Source of the DNA: Rhizobium sp. WSM4643
Lineage (GTDB): Bacteria > Pseudomonadota > Alphaproteobacteria > Rhizobiales > Rhizobiaceae
NCBI RefSeq assembly: GCF_025152745.1
Contig: NZ_CP104040.1
Span: forward strand, 2,356,001 to 2,420,000
Direction of reading: 5' to 3'
Length of the DNA stretch: 64,000 nucleotides
Under the pieces are notes generated by a model, which searched no databases, was not told the origin of the DNA, and saw only the letters and a program-made list of their open reading frames with translations. Shown here piece after piece: positions 40,994-54,520 of the stretch (within the stretch, counting starts at the first letter, position 1; every line of letters starts with the position of its first letter). Made by a program: the position numbers and the translations under genes.

Positions 40994-41166
40994 CCCCCCT
41001 CTGCCCTGCCGGGCATCTCCCCCACAGGTGGGGAGATTGGCTGGACGCACCGGCTTCCCCAAACAACTGGTGTCACAGCAGGGCGAAACCGTAAAGGGGC
41101 ACGAAGTTCAAGCCACTTGTGATCTCCCCACCTGTGGGGGAGATGCCCGGCAGGGCAGAGGGGGGT
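40994..41166. repeat. Inverted pair of CCCCCCTCTG...GGGGAGAT repeats
   Basis: Arm 1 (40994-41037, starting CCCCCCTCTGCCCTGCCGGG) and arm 2 (41121-41166, starting GATCTCCCCACCTGTGGGGG) are reverse complements over more than 40 bases with an 83-base spacer. Each arm also has an internal ATCTCCCC / GGGGAGAT stem. The same element, in a slightly different version, is inserted in cobN at 51163-51350. The gap 40907-41205 holds no gene. Confidence 0.85.
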
Positions 41167-47842: not shown

Positions 47843-50800
47843 TGGGTCACCTCATTCTGTTGTGTAGCAGCCAGGTCGAACCGGGCCGAATTGCTGCGCG
47901 GCGTCCAGAGGCTGCGGTCGATCGCTTCGAACAGCCGCTCCTTCATCTCGTCGAACGCCGCCGGGTTCTTCTCGATCATGAAATCGCGCACGCCGGGATC
48001 GGCGACGAAGGCCCGGTAGACGGCCTCGAAATGATGTTCGCCGACCGCACCTGTCGTTGCAGCGAAGGCAAAGAGATAATCGACGGTGGCGGTGATCTCG
48101 GCTGCCCCCTTGTAGCCGTGGCGCATGACGCCCGCGATCCATTTCGGGTTGACGACGCGCCCCCGCACGACGCGGCCGATCTCCTCTTCCAGCGAACGGA
48201 TCACCGGCTTTTCCGGCCGGGAATGGTCGTTATGATAGATCGAAGGGCGCGCGCCGGCGAGCTGCTCGGCGGCCGCCGCCATGCCGCCCTCGAACTGGTA
48301 ATAGTCGTCGCTGTCGAGCAGGTCGTGCTCGCGATTGTCCTGGTTCTGGATGACAGCCTGCACCGAGCGCAGCCGCTCCTCGAACAGGCCGCGTTCGGCC
48401 CTGCCCTCTTCGCCGGCACCATAGGCATAGCTGCCCCAGACAAGATAGGCCTCGGCGAGATCGGCGCGCCGCTCCCAGCCCTTTTCATCGATCAGCGCCT
48501 GCAGGCCGGCGCCGTAAGCGCCGGGCTTCGAGCCGAAGACCCGATAGCCCGCCCGGCGCTTTGCCGAGATTTCGTCCAGGCCGGCGGCGCCAAGCCTTGC
48601 CGCCTCGCCTCGCATACGTGTTGCGATCGGATTGTCGGCCTCGTCTTCCTCAAGTGCGCCGACGGCACGGATCGCCTTGTCGAACAGCGCGATCTGCTCG
48701 GGAAAGGCATCGCGGAAGAAGCCGGAAATGCGGAGCGTCACGTCGACGCGCGGCCGCCCGAGCATCGCCGGCGGAATGATCTCGTAACCGGTGACACGAC
48801 GCGAGCTCATGTCCCAGAGCGGCTTGACACCGATCAGCGCCAGCGCCTGGGCGATATCGTCGCCGCCGGTGCGCATGTTCGACGTGCCCCAGGCCGTCAG
48901 CCCGAAGGAGACAGGCCATTCGCCGTGATCCTGCACATAGCGGCGGACAAGCAGTTCGGCCGATTTCTTGCCGAGCTCGTAGGCAGCTGGCGTCGGCACG
49001 GCACGGCTGTCGACGGAGTAGAAATTGCGGCCGGTGGGCAAGACGTCGGGCCGCCCTCGCGTCGGCGCGCCGGATGGACCGGGCGCGACAAAGCGGCCGT
49101 CGAGGCCCTTGAGCAGAGCTTCGATTTCGGCGGGGCCGCAGGCGAGAATGGAGGGTTTGAGGCGGGTTTCGATTTCGGAGAGCACCACCCGTGTCGCCTT
49201 CCAGTCCTCGGGGCATTTGCTCTCGCCGGAAACGAACTTCGCCGCCAGCAGTTCGATGCGCTCGACGGTGTCGCCGTTGGTTCGCCATGGGGTATCGAGG
49301 AGGTCAGCGAGGATCTCAGAACGTGGCCCGGTCCAGATGGCGGCCATGTCGGTGTCGAGAGGGTCGAAAGAAGGCCCCTCCCCAACCCCTCCCCACAGGT
49401 GGGAGGGGCTTGCTGGGCGCCCCGTCTCAACATCAGCTTTGGCAATACGGGCTGCAGCAAGCGCAGAGGTAAGTCCCTCCCCCTTGTGGGGAGGGGTTGG
49501 GGAGGGGTCTTTCAGCTGGGAGAGATCTTTCACCGCATCTCCAGCAATCGCCCGCTGCAAGCTCGCATCACCGCCCTCGCCAAGCCCGCGCGGCACCCGC
49601 GCCAGCGCCACAGTGAGGTCGGTCAGCAGCCGCCCCTCGGGCGAGACCCCAAACACATGCAGCCCATCGCGGATCTGCATTTCCTTGAGGTCGCAGAGAT
49701 AGGCATCGAGCTTCTTCAGCGCCTCGCCCTCGCTTTCGCCCTTGGCGATACCGGCATCCCGGTCGAGACCGATATCGGTCACGAGATCGAGGATCTGGCG
49801 GCTGAGCAGCCGGATGCGGCGGGGATCGCCGCCGGATGCCTCGTAATATTCGTCGACCAGCGCCTCCAGATCCTTCAGCGGCCCATAGCTCTCGGCCCGC
49901 GTCAAAGGCGGGGTCAGATGATCGATGATCACAGCAGCATTTCGGCGCTTGGCCTGCGTACCCTCGCCCGGATCGTTGACGATGAAGGGATAAAGGTGCG
50001 GCAGCGGTCCGAGGATCGCCTCGGGATAACAGCTTTCAGACAGCGCCAGCGCCTTGCCCGGCAGCCATTCGAGATTGCCGTGCTTGCCCATATGGATGAC
50101 GGCATGCGCACCGAACTCGCGGCGCAGGAAAGCGTAGAAGGCGAGATAACCGTGCGGCGGCACGAGATCCGGCGAATGATAGCTCTCTTTCGGATCGATA
50201 TTATAGCCGCGCGCCGGCTGGATGCCGACGAGCACCTCGCCGAAGCGCGCGAAGGGCAGGGCGAAGACGCCCTCGCGAAAATACGGATCGTCTTGCGGGC
50301 TTCCCCAGCGGGCTCTCACCTCATTCTGAATCTTGTTAGGAAGAGATTCCAGGAAGCTGTGGTACGAACTCAGGGAAAGCGTCTCGCGGATGATCTTTCC
50401 GTCGGAACCGGAATTGGTCGGCCCTTCCATCAGATGGCGGATCAGCAGATCGCCGTCGGCGGGAATCTCGGCGACCGGATACCCCGCCGCCCGCATGGCG
50501 CGAAGCACCTCGATGGTGCCGGCTGGCGTATCCAAGCCGACGCCGTTGCCGAGCCGACCGTCGCGGTTCGGATAATTCGCCACGACGAGCGCGATGCGCC
50601 GGTCGCCGGCTGATGTCTTCCGCAGCCGTGCCCAATTGCCGGCGAGCTCCGCCGTATAACGCACACGGCCGGCGTCGGCCTGGCTGGCGACGATATTGGT
50701 CTCGACGGCAGCATCGTAGCGCGCCGCCGTCTTGAAAGAGACCGCCCGCGCCAGCACCCGACCGTCGACTTCAGGCAGGGCCACGTTCATGCCGAGATCG

Positions 50801-51975
50801 CGCGCCGACAAGCCTTGCGAAGAAGCCGCCCATGCCTCCCTCGACGAGGCCGACAGGATCGCCTGCAGCACGATCGCCTCATTCGCCTCCAGCACCGTCG
50901 GCTGCCGGTCGGCACCCGGTGCCGAGACCGCAAAGCCCGTCGTATTGATGACGACATCAGGTTTCAGCGCCGAAAATACGCTTTCGAGAATGCCTGTCGA
51001 AACCGGATCTTTGAGACTATAGGCAAAGACCGGCAGCGGCCGCAGGCCGAGTGTCATCAGCGCTTCGATCAGAGCTTCGATCGGCCCAGTCTCGCCGCTT
51101 TGGACGAGGGCGCGGTAGAAGCTGATGGCGACGATGGGTTGGGATCCTGCGTCTGCCACCGAGTTCGGGATACCCCCCTCTGTCCTGCCGGACATCTCCC
51201 CCACAAGGGGGGAGATCAGGGATGAGAAGTCTCGCTCCATCTCCTCGGCCGAAGGTGCGGCATCCTCCAACGTTTCTCTTGTGCGAAGCCCTGGCGACTT
51301 GCCGATCTCCCCCCTTGTGGGGGAGATGTCCGGCAGGACAGAGGGGGGTAGCTCGGCGAATAAGGCAGGCACCACACGCGAAGACATCTCCGCAACAACC
51401 CGCCGCCACTCCTCGACCCCGATCACCCCTCGTCCCGGCCACCAAATACCCGCCTTCATCAAAGGCACCGCCGGCGCCGGCTTTTCGCCATCCGCCAGCA
51501 TCGCCTCGGCATAATCGAGAAACGCCTGCGTATTGGCATCGCCGCCCTCGATCAGATAGGCCCAGAGCGCATTGAGATCGTCGACATCAACATTAGAGAA
51601 CGGCACCAGCCCCGCATCCGGCCTGGCATCGCCCGGCAGCACGGCGATCAGCGCACCGGCGCGGGCAGCTGCCGCATGCAGCGCTTCCAGCGCATAGTGG
51701 AAATAGCTGGCGCCGCCGAGCGCACGCACGATGATCAGCTTTGCATGCCGCGCTGTGCGCTCGACATAGGTGTCGACCGACATCGGGTGCTTGAGGCTCA
51801 TCAAGCTGGCGAGTCGCAGCGAAGGTGCTGTCCGGCGATCGCGATAGGCGGCGGCGATCGCGGCAAGCTCGCTGTCGGCCGCCGACAGGAACAGGATATC
51901 GCCCGGGGACTGCCCGAGGTCGATTGCCTCCTCACCGTCGCTGATCGTCCCTTGTTGAGCCAGAAGCAGATGCAT
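47839..51975 (-). CDS. cobN: Aerobic cobaltochelatase subunit CobN, with two in-frame repeat insertions
   Basis: CobN is the large subunit of the ATP-dependent chelatase (with CobS and CobT chelatase subunits encoded elsewhere) that inserts cobalt into hydrogenobyrinate a,c-diamide. At 1378 residues it is about 100 longer than the usual CobN (about 1270). The excess is explained by two segments coded by palindromic repeats: residues about 209-270 (PPSVLPDISPTRGE ... SPLVGEMSGRTEGG) and about 822-868 (SPTPPHKGEG ... SPSHLWGGVGEG). The frame is open through both and conserved CobN sequence resumes after each. Core motifs such as VIHMGKHGNLEWLPGKALAL and TAWGTSNMRTGGDD are intact. It lies 4 bp downstream of cobW. 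Confidence 0.94.
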   Translation of the reverse strand: MHLLLAQQGTISDGEEAIDLGQSPGDILFLSAADSELAAIAAAYRDRRTAPSLRLASLMSLKHPMSVDTYVERTARHAKLIIVRALGGASYFHYALEALHAAAARAGALIAVLPGDARPDAGLVPFSNVDVDDLNALWAYLIEGGDANTQAFLDYAEAMLADGEKPAPAVPLMKAGIWWPGRGVIGVEEWRRVVAEMSSRVVPALFAELPPSVLPDISPTRGEIGKSPGLRTRETLEDAAPSAEEMERDFSSLISPLVGEMSGRTEGGIPNSVADAGSQPIVAISFYRALVQSGETGPIEALIEALMTLGLRPLPVFAYSLKDPVSTGILESVFSALKPDVVINTTGFAVSAPGADRQPTVLEANEAIVLQAILSASSREAWAASSQGLSARDLGMNVALPEVDGRVLARAVSFKTAARYDAAVETNIVASQADAGRVRYTAELAGNWARLRKTSAGDRRIALVVANYPNRDGRLGNGVGLDTPAGTIEVLRAMRAAGYPVAEIPADGDLLIRHLMEGPTNSGSDGKIIRETLSLSSYHSFLESLPNKIQNEVRARWGSPQDDPYFREGVFALPFARFGEVLVGIQPARGYNIDPKESYHSPDLVPPHGYLAFYAFLRREFGAHAVIHMGKHGNLEWLPGKALALSESCYPEAILGPLPHLYPFIVNDPGEGTQAKRRNAAVIIDHLTPPLTRAESYGPLKDLEALVDEYYEASGGDPRRIRLLSRQILDLVTDIGLDRDAGIAKGESEGEALKKLDAYLCDLKEMQIRDGLHVFGVSPEGRLLTDLTVALARVPRGLGEGGDASLQRAIAGDAVKDLSQLKDPSPTPPHKGEGLTSALAAARIAKADVETGRPASPSHLWGGVGEGPSFDPLDTDMAAIWTGPRSEILADLLDTPWRTNGDTVERIELLAAKFVSGESKCPEDWKATRVVLSEIETRLKPSILACGPAEIEALLKGLDGRFVAPGPSGAPTRGRPDVLPTGRNFYSVDSRAVPTPAAYELGKKSAELLVRRYVQDHGEWPVSFGLTAWGTSNMRTGGDDIAQALALIGVKPLWDMSSRRVTGYEIIPPAMLGRPRVDVTLRISGFFRDAFPEQIALFDKAIRAVGALEEDEADNPIATRMRGEAARLGAAGLDEISAKRRAGYRVFGSKPGAYGAGLQALIDEKGWERRADLAEAYLVWGSYAYGAGEEGRAERGLFEERLRSVQAVIQNQDNREHDLLDSDDYYQFEGGMAAAAEQLAGARPSIYHNDHSRPEKPVIRSLEEEIGRVVRGRVVNPKWIAGVMRHGYKGAAEITATVDYLFAFAATTGAVGEHHFEAVYRAFVADPGVRDFMIEKNPAAFDEMKERLFEAIDRSLWTPRSNSARFDLAATQQNEVTQ
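49373..49511. repeat. Palindromic repeat inserted in cobN (second site)
   Basis: Arms CCCCTCCCCAACCCCTCCCC (49376-49395) and GGGGAGGGGTTGGGGAGGGG (49488-49507) are inverted complements. The total of about 138 bases (46 codons) keeps the cobN frame. The encoded peptide is low-complexity, rich in Pro, Gly and Ser, unlike the surrounding protein. Confidence 0.8.
51163..51350. repeat. Palindromic repeat inserted in cobN (first site)
   Basis: Arms starting CCCCCCTCTGTCCTGCCGGA (51173) and ending with its complement TCCGGCAGGACAGAGGGGGG (51329-51348) enclose about 85 bases. The same inverted pair occurs outside genes at 40994-41166 with a few base changes. The insertion adds about 62 codons to cobN without a stop. 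Confidence 0.85.
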
Positions 51976-51979
51976 CGGG

Positions 51980-53029
51980 TTACGCCAGCGCTTCGATCGC
52001 CGCCCTCACCGCGCCCTGATCCATTTCGTGCAGGCCGATGACGACGAGGCGCGTGGCGCGCTTTTCGCCAGTTGCCCAGGCGCGGTCGAAATAATGGTCG
52101 ATGCGGCTGCCGACGGCCTGGAGTTGCAGGCGCATCGACTTGCCTGACACATCGACGAAACCTTTTAGGCGCAGCACGTCATGGGCGGCAATGATGCCCT
52201 TCAGCGCTTCGATGAAGCCGGCGGCATCGGCAATGGGTCCGAGATCGACGACGAAGCTGTCGAATTCGTCATGATCGTGCGGCGCACCGTCCTCATGCTC
52301 CAGCTCGTGATGCGACTTGCGATTGGCGACATCGTCCTCCGTGCCGATGCCGAGGCCGAGCAGGATGCCGGCCGACACCTCGCCATTCCGTGCTTCGATC
52401 ATGACCGGCTTACGGACGGTGCGGGAGGCGACTTCGTCCCGCACGCGGCTAAGGCCGGCAGCATCGATCAGGTCGGTCTTGTTGAGCACGATGAGATCGG
52501 CGCAGGTGAGCTGATCCTCGAACAGCTCCTCAATCGGGCTTTCGTGATCGAGCGATTCATCCTCGGCGCGGCGCGCATCGACGGCATCATGGTCGTCGGC
52601 GAATCGGCCGGCGGCAACGGCAGCACTGTCGACCACCGTGACGACACCGTCGACGGTCACCTGGGTGCGAATGTCGGGCCAGTTGAAGGCGGCGACCAGC
52701 GGCTGCGGCAGGGCAAGGCCCGAGGTTTCGATGACGATATGGTCGGGCCGATATTCGCGTTCCAGCAGCTTGGTCATCGTCGGGATGAAATCGTCGGCGA
52801 CGGTGCAGCAGATGCAGCCATTGGTGAGTTCGATGATGTCGTCCTCGGTGCAATTCTCCGCACCGCAGCCCTTCAGCACATCACCGTCGACGCCGAGATC
52901 GCCGAATTCGTTGATAATAAGCGCAATCTTCTTGCCGCCGGCATTGGTGAGCAGGTTGCGGATCAGCGTCGTCTTGCCGGCGCCGAGGAAGCCGGTGATC
53001 ACGGTTGCGGGAATCTTCTGCTGGTTCAT
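51980..53029 (-). CDS. cobW: CobW, metal-chaperone GTPase of cobalamin synthesis
   Basis: CobW (349 residues) is a G3E GTPase thought to deliver cobalt to the CobNST chelatase. The P-loop is GFLGAGKT (13-20), the metal-binding CxCC motif is NGCICCTV (C72, C74, C75) and the guanine motif is NKTD. A histidine-rich stretch (HHELEHEDGAPHDHDEF) in the second half may bind metal. The C-terminal CobW_C domain follows. It is the second gene of the riboswitch-controlled operon, 4 bp after cobP. Confidence 0.94.
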   Translation of the reverse strand: MNQQKIPATVITGFLGAGKTTLIRNLLTNAGGKKIALIINEFGDLGVDGDVLKGCGAENCTEDDIIELTNGCICCTVADDFIPTMTKLLEREYRPDHIVIETSGLALPQPLVAAFNWPDIRTQVTVDGVVTVVDSAAVAAGRFADDHDAVDARRAEDESLDHESPIEELFEDQLTCADLIVLNKTDLIDAAGLSRVRDEVASRTVRKPVMIEARNGEVSAGILLGLGIGTEDDVANRKSHHELEHEDGAPHDHDEFDSFVVDLGPIADAAGFIEALKGIIAAHDVLRLKGFVDVSGKSMRLQLQAVGSRIDHYFDRAWATGEKRATRLVVIGLHEMDQGAVRAAIEALA

Positions 53030-53033
53030 GGAC

Positions 53034-53558
53034 TTAACCCTTCATTTTCAACGGCAGGCCTGCCGCGATGAAATAAACTTCGGCGGCCTTCGCCGCGATT
53101 AATTGGTGCAGTCGGCCGGCATGATCGCGAAAATCCCGCGCCATGCGATTGTCGGGCACGATGCCGAGGCCGACCTCGTTGGAAACGAAAACGAGCCGTG
53201 CCTTCGCGGCAGGCAGAAAATCGGCAAGGGCAGCAAATTCCGCCGCCATCTCACGCTCCTCCATCATCAGATTGGTGACCCAGAGCGTCAGGCAGTCGAC
53301 GAGAACGATGCGCCCCGGTCCATCGATGGCGGTGAGCTTGCCGACAAGATCGACCGGCTCCTCATACGTCGTCCAGGACGGACCGCGGTCGGCTTGGTGT
53401 TGGGCGATGCGCGCCTGCATCTCCTCGTCCCAAGCGCGGCCGGTCGCGAGATAGTGGCGATCGAGGCCGGTTGCGGTGACGAGGGATTCGGCGAACCGGG
53501 ATTTGCCGGAACGTGCGCCGCCGAGGATGAAGACGGTGTTGGATGGGGAGGCCGTCAT
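53034..53558 (-). CDS. cobP: Adenosylcobinamide kinase / cobinamide-phosphate guanylyltransferase
   Basis: CobP (CobU in Salmonella naming; 174 residues) phosphorylates adenosylcobinamide and transfers GMP to give adenosylcobinamide-GDP, the substrate of CobS. The P-loop is [14 protein letters not shown] (11-24), the guanylylation region is [18 protein letters not shown] with its His, and [11 protein letters not shown] is conserved. The ATG at 53556-53558 gives the family length; the frame continues 13 codons upstream. It is the first gene after the B12 riboswitch. Confidence 0.94.
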
Positions 53559-53600
53559 GCGAAAGCGGCCTCCAGAGGAAACGCAACGTTCCACCACGCT

Positions 53601-53739
53601 CCCTCATTCCTGTGCTGGTCACAGGAGTCCAGCCACGGCGCGTCCGCGCCGTGAATGACTCTGTGCTGTCGTGAAATGATTCTTTCGCGCCCAAGGACTT
53701 GGGCGCACTGGATTCCTGTGACCAGCACAGGAATGAGGG
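53601..53739. repeat. Long inverted repeat between cobP and its riboswitch
   Basis: Arms CCCTCATTCCTGTGCTGGTC (53601-53620, extending to 53632) and its complement (53708-53739, ending CCAGCACAGGAATGAGGG) match over about 32 bases with one mismatch and enclose 75 bases. Inner arms CACGGCGCG / CGCGCCGTG (53634-53652) form a second stem. Confidence 0.8.
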
Positions 53740-53840
53740 AGGAGAGGAAAGTGCCTCGCAAATGCACCGAGCCACAGGTCTCAACCCGTCTTTCGGTCCC
53801 CCCTCGCGAATGAGAGGAAGCGAGGCGCCCCCGCACATCT

Positions 53841-54000
53841 CTTCTCCCCAGCGGGGAGAAGGTGCCGGCAGGCGGTTGAGGGGGTGAGCGGCGAAGCCGC
53901 GAATGCACTGAGCGCAAGCGAAGGGCAATGATGAAGGGCGTGCCGTGCGGCCCCCTCATCCGACCCTTCGGGCCACCTTCTCCCCGCTGGGGAGAAGAGG
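53841..54000. repeat. RIME-like element, copy B
   Basis: The element starts CTTCTCCCCAGCGGGGAGAA and ends CTTCTCCCCGCTGGGGAGAA, with the shared internal parts GGTGCCGGCAGGCGGTTGAG and CCCTCATCCGACCCTTCGGG. It is related to copies at 14039-14232 and 58276-58470. With the inverted repeat next to it, it fills the region 53559-54111 between cobP and the riboswitch; no gene was found there. Confidence 0.8.
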
Positions 54001-54111
54001 AAGCAAATAGCGCCGCACCAGGCCGCGCTGAATTCAATCGTTCAGCCAAGACAACCTCCGTGCTGGCAACGGGCATAGTGCCCAGGTGTGGGCTTCTCGC
54101 CCGGCACGCAT

Positions 54112-54463
54112 GGCAGGTCTCCTGGCTCGCGGTTATCGGCCGCGATCGGGGCAGACCGGAAACCGGTCGCCCTGATCGTGCCAGCGGATCATCCTCGCCT
54201 TCCCGGCCGCATCAGTGAAAAGGTGGACGATTCGTAGACTTGAGAGGCGTCCGACCCCGGTTGATCACCATGCATTTCCAGTGGCTTTTCCGGCATATCG
54301 CCTATCCCGCCCGCTTGCATGATTGCAAGTCGCCGGCCGGAAGGGCTTAGTGCCGGATGGAAGACCCTGACCGCTCTACAGTCGCGGGGTCGGCTGTGAT
54401 GAAGGCGCCCGGCTTGGGTCCGCCCCGTCACATTCCCTTTTCATCCGGAAGGGCGTAACACCG
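54112..54463 (-). promoter_or_regulatory. Cobalamin (B12) riboswitch
   Basis: Read on the minus strand, the region has GGTG near its 5' end (54462), GAAAAGGGAA (54433-54442), GCCACTGGAAATGC in the middle (about 54280), the CCGGGAAGGCG core (about 54205) and the B12 box AGCCAGGAGACCTGCC (54112-54127). These are the conserved elements of the adenosylcobalamin riboswitch in their proper order. It should reduce expression of cobP-cobW-cobN-cobO-cobE when B12 is abundant. About 550 bp of repeats separate it from cobP. Confidence 0.92.
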
Positions 54464-54470
54464 ATCCGGA

Positions 54471-54520
54471 ACCATCCGTTATGTCAGGATGGTCAATCGA
54501 CCATCCGTTATCGGGATGGT
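54471..54520. repeat. Tandem 29-bp palindromes upstream of the riboswitch
   Basis: ACCATCC-N9-GGATGGT (54471-54493) and ACCATCC-N7-GGATGGT (54500-54520) are two dyads starting 29 bp apart, just before the riboswitch 5' end on the minus strand. They fit a double operator site or small hairpins in the promoter region. Confidence 0.6.

Follow-up and report, generated by a model that had tools for sequence, protein, structure and literature searches.

Palindromic elements inside the reading frame of cobN and other genes of Rhizobium

The insert at about residues 207-270 of the CobN protein of Rhizobium sp. WSM4643 is one instance of a wider system of coding palindromic elements in Rhizobiaceae. 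Very probably, it is a non-autonomous palindromic element that is tolerated in a linker between domains of CobN and works in a manner like that of the Rickettsia palindromic elements (RPE). According to this reading, a non-autonomous palindromic repeat would have inserted in frame into cobN. In Rhizobiaceae and their neighbours, the same two loops of the enzyme have repeatedly been entered, emptied, and refilled, with different palindromic families taking part. The cobN insert would persist because the region in which it sits links two folded domains and is disordered. Since the site-1 arms contain no stops in any of the six frames, a suitable spacer length would be enough to give a hydrophilic, disordered, and tolerated peptide. 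We infer that CobN is made at full length and is active, as we do the manner in which the elements move.

Anatomy and reading frame of the cobN insert

The window, a contiguous stretch of 64,000 nucleotides, carries cobN on its minus strand (Table 1), and the identity of the gene follows from Pfam PF02514 (CobN-Mg_chel, 1250.5 bits) and from the CobN of PDB 9uk9. A sequence-only reading of this DNA had proposed that about 62 codons of cobN (residues 209-270) are an inverted-repeat element, that the reading frame is kept, and that CobN sequence resumes behind it. The repeat search confirmed the element with nearly the same borders, and the minus-strand ORF is open through it. The outer arms reported by this search (51166-51217 and 51304-51355) are 52 nt long and 96% complementary with 86 nt between them, while the perfect core consists of two 44-nt arms around the 88-nt spacer. 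A scan against Rfam gave no match at the element at E values up to 1; its one weak match lay outside the site-1 element and under its gathering score.

Table 1. Coordinates of cobN, its two inserts, and related palindromes within the window.
Feature	Position	Strand	Remark
Intergenic relative of site-1 element	40994..41165	.	44-nt arms, different spacer
cobN, cobaltochelatase large subunit, 1378 aa	47839..51975	-	single open frame across both inserts
Site-2 in-frame insert of CobN, other palindromic family (PSPTPPHKGEG .. PSHLWGGVGEG)	49366..49530	-	about residues 815-870
Site-1 palindromic element, in frame, 190 bp	51166..51355	-	CobN residues about 207-270
Site-1 3' arm (coding direction) ISPLVGEMSGRTEGG	51173..51216	-	44 nt
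Site-1 spacer, 88 nt	51217..51304	-	both orientations seen in relatives
Site-1 5' arm (coding direction) PPSVLPDISPTRGEI	51305..51348	-	44 nt, perfect inverted copy of 3' arm
Intergenic palindrome of the family filling CobN site 1 in L044, L045, L048, L054, and L067	53839..53999	.	

The open frame is a general property of the CobN loci. A single full-length frame was found in 75 of 80 loci; of the remainder, four run into contig ends, and one (L061) is split at the element. In L061 and in L201, the latter from genome G007 and found in another search, the site-1 arms differ in length by a single base, which breaks the cobN frame and in L061 leaves a part of about 250 aa and the remainder; these two breaks may be either sequencing errors or real losses. 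Both loci would fit the view that the insert marks a pseudogene or an assembly artefact. However, we consider this barely credible, given the 75 intact frames against a single split one, a dN/dS of 0.10 in the enzyme core, and the same anatomy in R. johnstonii 3841 and in the window genome, which is assembled in 4 contigs.

The lengths of the elements in CobN keep the frame as well. A spacer length of 1 mod 3 was found in 60 of the 70 CobN copies with two recognised arms, compared with 3 of 12 other own-genome copies with two arms (Fisher p 5e-5, with the counts drawn from related sequences). The ten CobN copies with other spacer lengths likewise stand in open CobN frames.

With regards to the protein, the site-1 insert is predicted to be disordered. 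In the structure model, residues 201-270 reach pLDDT values of 29-37 per ten-residue block, against 67-77 just outside, the model as a whole being a modest one (mean pLDDT 58.6) from a shallow alignment of 28 rows. The dN/dS of the spacer amounts to 0.56 in the forward set (6 sequences) and to 0.51 in the reversed set (4 sequences), compared with the core value given above. Its dS of 0.32 is close to the dS of the core (0.40), so that the element is not a recent arrival.

Turnover at two sites of CobN and further host genes

Only two internal blocks of variable length exist among the 76 CobN compared. Depending on the species, both sites are occupied by one of several palindromic families or are empty, at times more than one element is found in one site, and in several relatives site 2 is occupied by the site-1 family. 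The CobN tree was calculated with FastTree from 75 loci and the window after both sites had been removed, leaving out L061 (split frame) as well as L092, L093, L099, and L100 (contig ends) of the 80 loci. On this tree of related sequences, site 1 requires at least 26 state changes and site 2 at least 31, counts that are approximate because the families were classed by hand-written peptide patterns. The corresponding minima for changes of presence, drawn from the same related sequences, are 12 and 13.

No recognised repeat family was found at site 1 in 20 of the 76 CobN, most of which are short there, with the reservation that L077 and L058 are classed as empty yet contain element-like sequence, that L050 resembles a decayed element, and that L057 and L091 are classed as filled yet hold scars. 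In L057, half an arm remains as an in-frame scar. The CobN of PDB 9uk9 has neither insert, and at site 1 it aligns on both sides with a link of only eight residues. The possibility, raised with the sequence-only reading itself, that repeat-free CobN proteins carry the segment as conserved sequence is therefore not borne out by these 20 proteins and 9uk9. At site 2, the empty L064 and L057 form a near-clean pair with the element-filled L031 and L055; in one site-2 comparison of empty and filled sequences, no target-site duplication was visible by eye.

This turnover also bears on whether selection maintains the insert peptide for a function in the CobN of these species. The dN/dS of the spacer, which is under 1, would be in line with such a role. 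However, the segment has been acquired and lost again, gives way to other families, occurs inverted, and is predicted to be disordered, which makes a functional peptide very improbable in our view. With the tolerated element as the preferred reading, the insertion at site 1 that had been called the first one is real, but not isolated, as it represents one case of a recurrent phenomenon. The second insert of CobN derives from a different repeat family.

Four families other than the site-1 family of the window recur in their own host genomes. With arms and strands counted apart, the blastn matches amount to 83 for the site-2 family in the window genome, and to 94, 48, and 47 for the site families of L044 (R. 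vallis), L082, and L097 in their respective genomes. As a separate observation, a smaller palindrome is apparently nested in the element or insert of L041, L201, and L043 at site 1 and of L046 at site 2, and in L041 it is in frame.

The site-1 element itself has 63 blastn matches in the 6.44-Mb window genome, where its family comprises about 24 copies or fragments; together with its RNA fold (z -13.7), this exceeds what chance would give. The exact 39-nt arm is present in 66 of 148 congeneric genomes; in the window genome it occurs in cobN only (one forward, one reverse), so that no identical donor is present there now. The intergenic repeat at 40994-41166 had been regarded as the other copy of the cobN element. 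It is indeed intergenic, and its arms (40994-41037 and 41122-41165, 44 nt, 100% complementary) are related to those in cobN, but the spacer is not common to both, and with unrelated spacers this copy was ruled out as the source of the cobN insert. The best spacer identity to the cobN spacer among the 14 own-genome two-arm copies measured was 0.60. Elsewhere, element copies in L117 (2976-4644) and L119 (2954-4618) are apparently split by the same insertion of ~1.6 kb, with an identical flank at the break.

Inside recognised genes of the window genome, three copies are in frame, namely those in cobN, in ribD (L116 2183-3493, +), and in ftsY (L126 1884-3512, -). The RibD insertion was found at the same position in 9 of 20 congeneric loci that had been chosen for long open frames (L161-L164, L166, L170, L171, L175, and L179), and also in L219, while the FtsY insertion occurs again in L177. 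In the congener G075, half an element is present in UvrB (L215 1-1884, +), located behind the UVR motif and before the C-terminal tail. In the phase used by the hosts RibD, FtsY, and UvrB, the 3' arm is translated as ISPLVGEM or a similar peptide, with no Cys and no Trp; the remaining phases of the arm read, for example, SPPLWGRCPAG and DLPPCGGDV. The left arm of FtsY in the window genome is read in a different phase.

A subset of 29 own-genome ORFs that overlap elements was scanned with Pfam. Besides RibD and FtsY, three Pfam-matched ORFs have an element at their extreme 5' end, ExoD (L125), an ABC transporter (L130), and an SLT lytic transglycosylase (L129), and these three were excluded from the count of coding copies. 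In L129 (1743-3185, -), the element covers residues about 8-66, counted in the stop-to-stop frame, and precedes the SLT domain; the congeners L235 and L240 resemble this arrangement. The element in L169 is located ahead of a DNA ligase, and in eight further long congener frames (L165, L167, L168, L172-L174, L176, and L178) no Pfam family was found. The arm copies in L241-L247 were rejected as coding, as their frames were judged spurious by eye or no frame was present; in L248, the exact arm was not found.

Arm conservation and spacer orientation

In seven species (the window, L030, L031, L032, L034, L035, and L055), the 44-nt arms at site 1 are identical on both sides with 0 of 88 positions variable, a comparison that omits L033 (one arm mismatch), L036 (four), L041 (nested insertion), and L061. 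None of the 19 fourfold sites in these arms is variable, compared with 63 of 128 in the neighbouring 260 codons (p 1e-5) and 316 of 584 in the core (p 5e-7). When L033 and L036 are included in a forward set, 5 of the 88 arm positions vary, and the fourfold sites remain at 0 of 15 variable against 69 of 131 (p 4e-5). As the site-1 arms are without change at fourfold sites, they seem to be kept as DNA, and pure tolerance does not explain their conservation at these sites. In RibD, the arms of 11 loci differ mostly as a few recurring variants, often with 1-5 mismatches in 44 between the two arms, which suggests that arms are exchanged with a pool, that the DNA is constrained, or a combination of the two.

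One conceivable reason for keeping the arms would be a hairpin of ~46 bp in the cobN mRNA with a function in translation pausing or RNase III processing. As RNA, the site-1 element has a very stable predicted fold (-138.7 kcal/mol, z -13.7), and 13 of the 18 CobN copies whose spacer is 88 nt long show 0 or 1 arm mismatches over 44 nt. However, the other five copies have 2, 3, 4, 13, and 18 mismatches, and a recognised site-1 element is absent from 20 of the 76 CobN proteins. Furthermore, the unlike arm variants of RibD each recur across species, so that the sequence, and not the pairing, is preserved there. All in all, we regard a selected hairpin as decidedly unlikely.

The spacer was found in both orientations at both sites. 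Among 29 non-redundant cobN copies, 13 are forward and 7 reversed at site 1, and 7 are forward and 2 reversed at site 2; the spacer therefore seems to have been inverted in place. The copy of the window has its nearest counterparts (92%) among reversed copies, namely those of R. johnstonii 3841 and G093. The genome of R. johnstonii 3841 has two cobN copies that share 90% identity and are oppositely oriented, while no other copy was found there above 73% identity over the whole element. Misassembly of inverted repeats is a concern in draft genomes, but both orientations also exist at site 1 in genomes of 8 contigs or fewer, with three reversed (G039, which is 3841, G093, and G007) and six forward (G000, G078, G089, G023, G096, and G135). 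On a tree of the flanks, at least 7 changes of orientation are required.

These findings, together with the arms that are identical over 44 nt in seven species, would suit a live DNA cassette, whose arms would be maintained as DNA, with a spacer that turns around between them and is passed by copying from one CobN site to another. Such a cassette is compatible with the main reading and, judged from sequence comparison, is a tentative possibility to which we give less than even weight. With the same restrained confidence, each flip would exchange a linker stretch of about 29 residues and leave the reading frame of the enzyme intact. The inversion itself could arise if the perfect arms recombined or if a template switch took place between them. 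However, strongly supported branches demand only 2 of the orientation changes, and the orientation label is unclustered on the flank tree (7 changes against a shuffled mean of 6.0). Allele exchange between strains could move orientations as well and may inflate the number of changes. Moreover, the unused orientation is open in 26 of 29 spacers of 88 nt, no better than the 26.2 expected from codon shuffles, and in 31 of 43 other spacers compared with 28.0 expected, and selection on both strands of the spacer was accordingly rejected.

The searches with the 88-nt spacer set a further limit to the cassette. Matches were obtained in 25 of 148 congeneric genomes (34 rows, with 6 candidates scored per genome) and in 11 of 13 selected genomes, one of them via a 33-nt piece only. 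Of the 30 loci that resulted from the 148 genomes, cobN flanks place 27 at site 1 or 2, and three are short partial matches without such flanks. Four rows had no locus; three of these lie ~1.8-1.9 kb from a site-1 match, as expected of site 2, and the fourth is a 23-nt piece. The searches missed known copies, namely L032 at site 1 and L035 at site 2, which restricts the notion of a spacer found in cobN only to the copies that were measured. For this reason, the privacy of the spacer was checked by the whole element instead, and the spacer appears to be private to cobN, firmly only so for the copies measured in the window genome and in R. johnstonii 3841.

Another repeat family was observed in the genome of L097 (G163), where three places (C38:320951, 330144, and 331884) share a spacer. 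Two places are 1.7 kb apart, by their spacing the two cobN sites, and are 88% identical in opposite orientation; the third copy of the spacer is about 10 kb away (86%).

Relation to known repeat systems

RPE and the similar elements of Wolbachia are palindromes of ~100-200 bp that are found between genes and in frame in unrelated conserved genes, where the inserted peptide lies in loops and the host protein continues. To our knowledge, coding palindromic repeats have so far been a curiosity of Rickettsiales. The likeness to the protein-coding elements of Rickettsia had already been pointed out from the sequence, and as a comparison of mechanism it is fair. The rhizobial family consists of inverted repeats with copies within and between genes, its in-frame inserts affect unrelated conserved proteins (CobN, RibD, and FtsY in one genome, UvrB in G075), and the insert occupies a loop that is absent from homologues without it, in line with 9uk9, the 20 of 76 CobN classed as lacking a family at site 1, and the low pLDDT. 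In contrast to RPE, the rhizobial case concerns another bacterial order, several families share two loops of a single enzyme, the spacer is found in both orientations, and the arms are preserved at synonymous sites. It is thus fair to say that the coding palindromic elements of Rhizobiaceae probably work like RPE, a likeness that concerns the mechanism.

RIME and similar repeats of Rhizobium and Sinorhizobium are GC-rich double palindromes that have been described as intergenic. The copy at 40994-41165 looks to be of the RIME kind; the repeats presented here differ in that they are coding. Invertible DNA segments serve as switches of phase variation, with inverted repeats flanking a segment that is found both ways. 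Similarly, the cobN arms flank a spacer seen in both orientations at the same locus, but here the host protein is in frame in either orientation.

In a free-living, nitrogen-fixing genus, several families have repeatedly been gained, lost, replaced, and apparently inverted at two sites within a single conserved enzyme. As dozens of sequenced species can be placed on the tree, this system could serve as a natural laboratory for selfish DNA that supplies protein segments, for the loops that accept them, and for arms that resist synonymous change. For annotation, the conspicuous motif ISPLVGEMSGRTEGG should be taken as the mark of a repeat and not of a domain.

The neighbourhood upstream of cobN holds further elements of note. 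A cobalamin riboswitch (Rfam RF00174) is located at 54095-54491 (-), upstream of the ORFs 53034-53597 and 51980-53029 and of cobN. Between the riboswitch and the first of these ORFs lie two palindromes, one at 53599-53741 and the other at 53839-53999.
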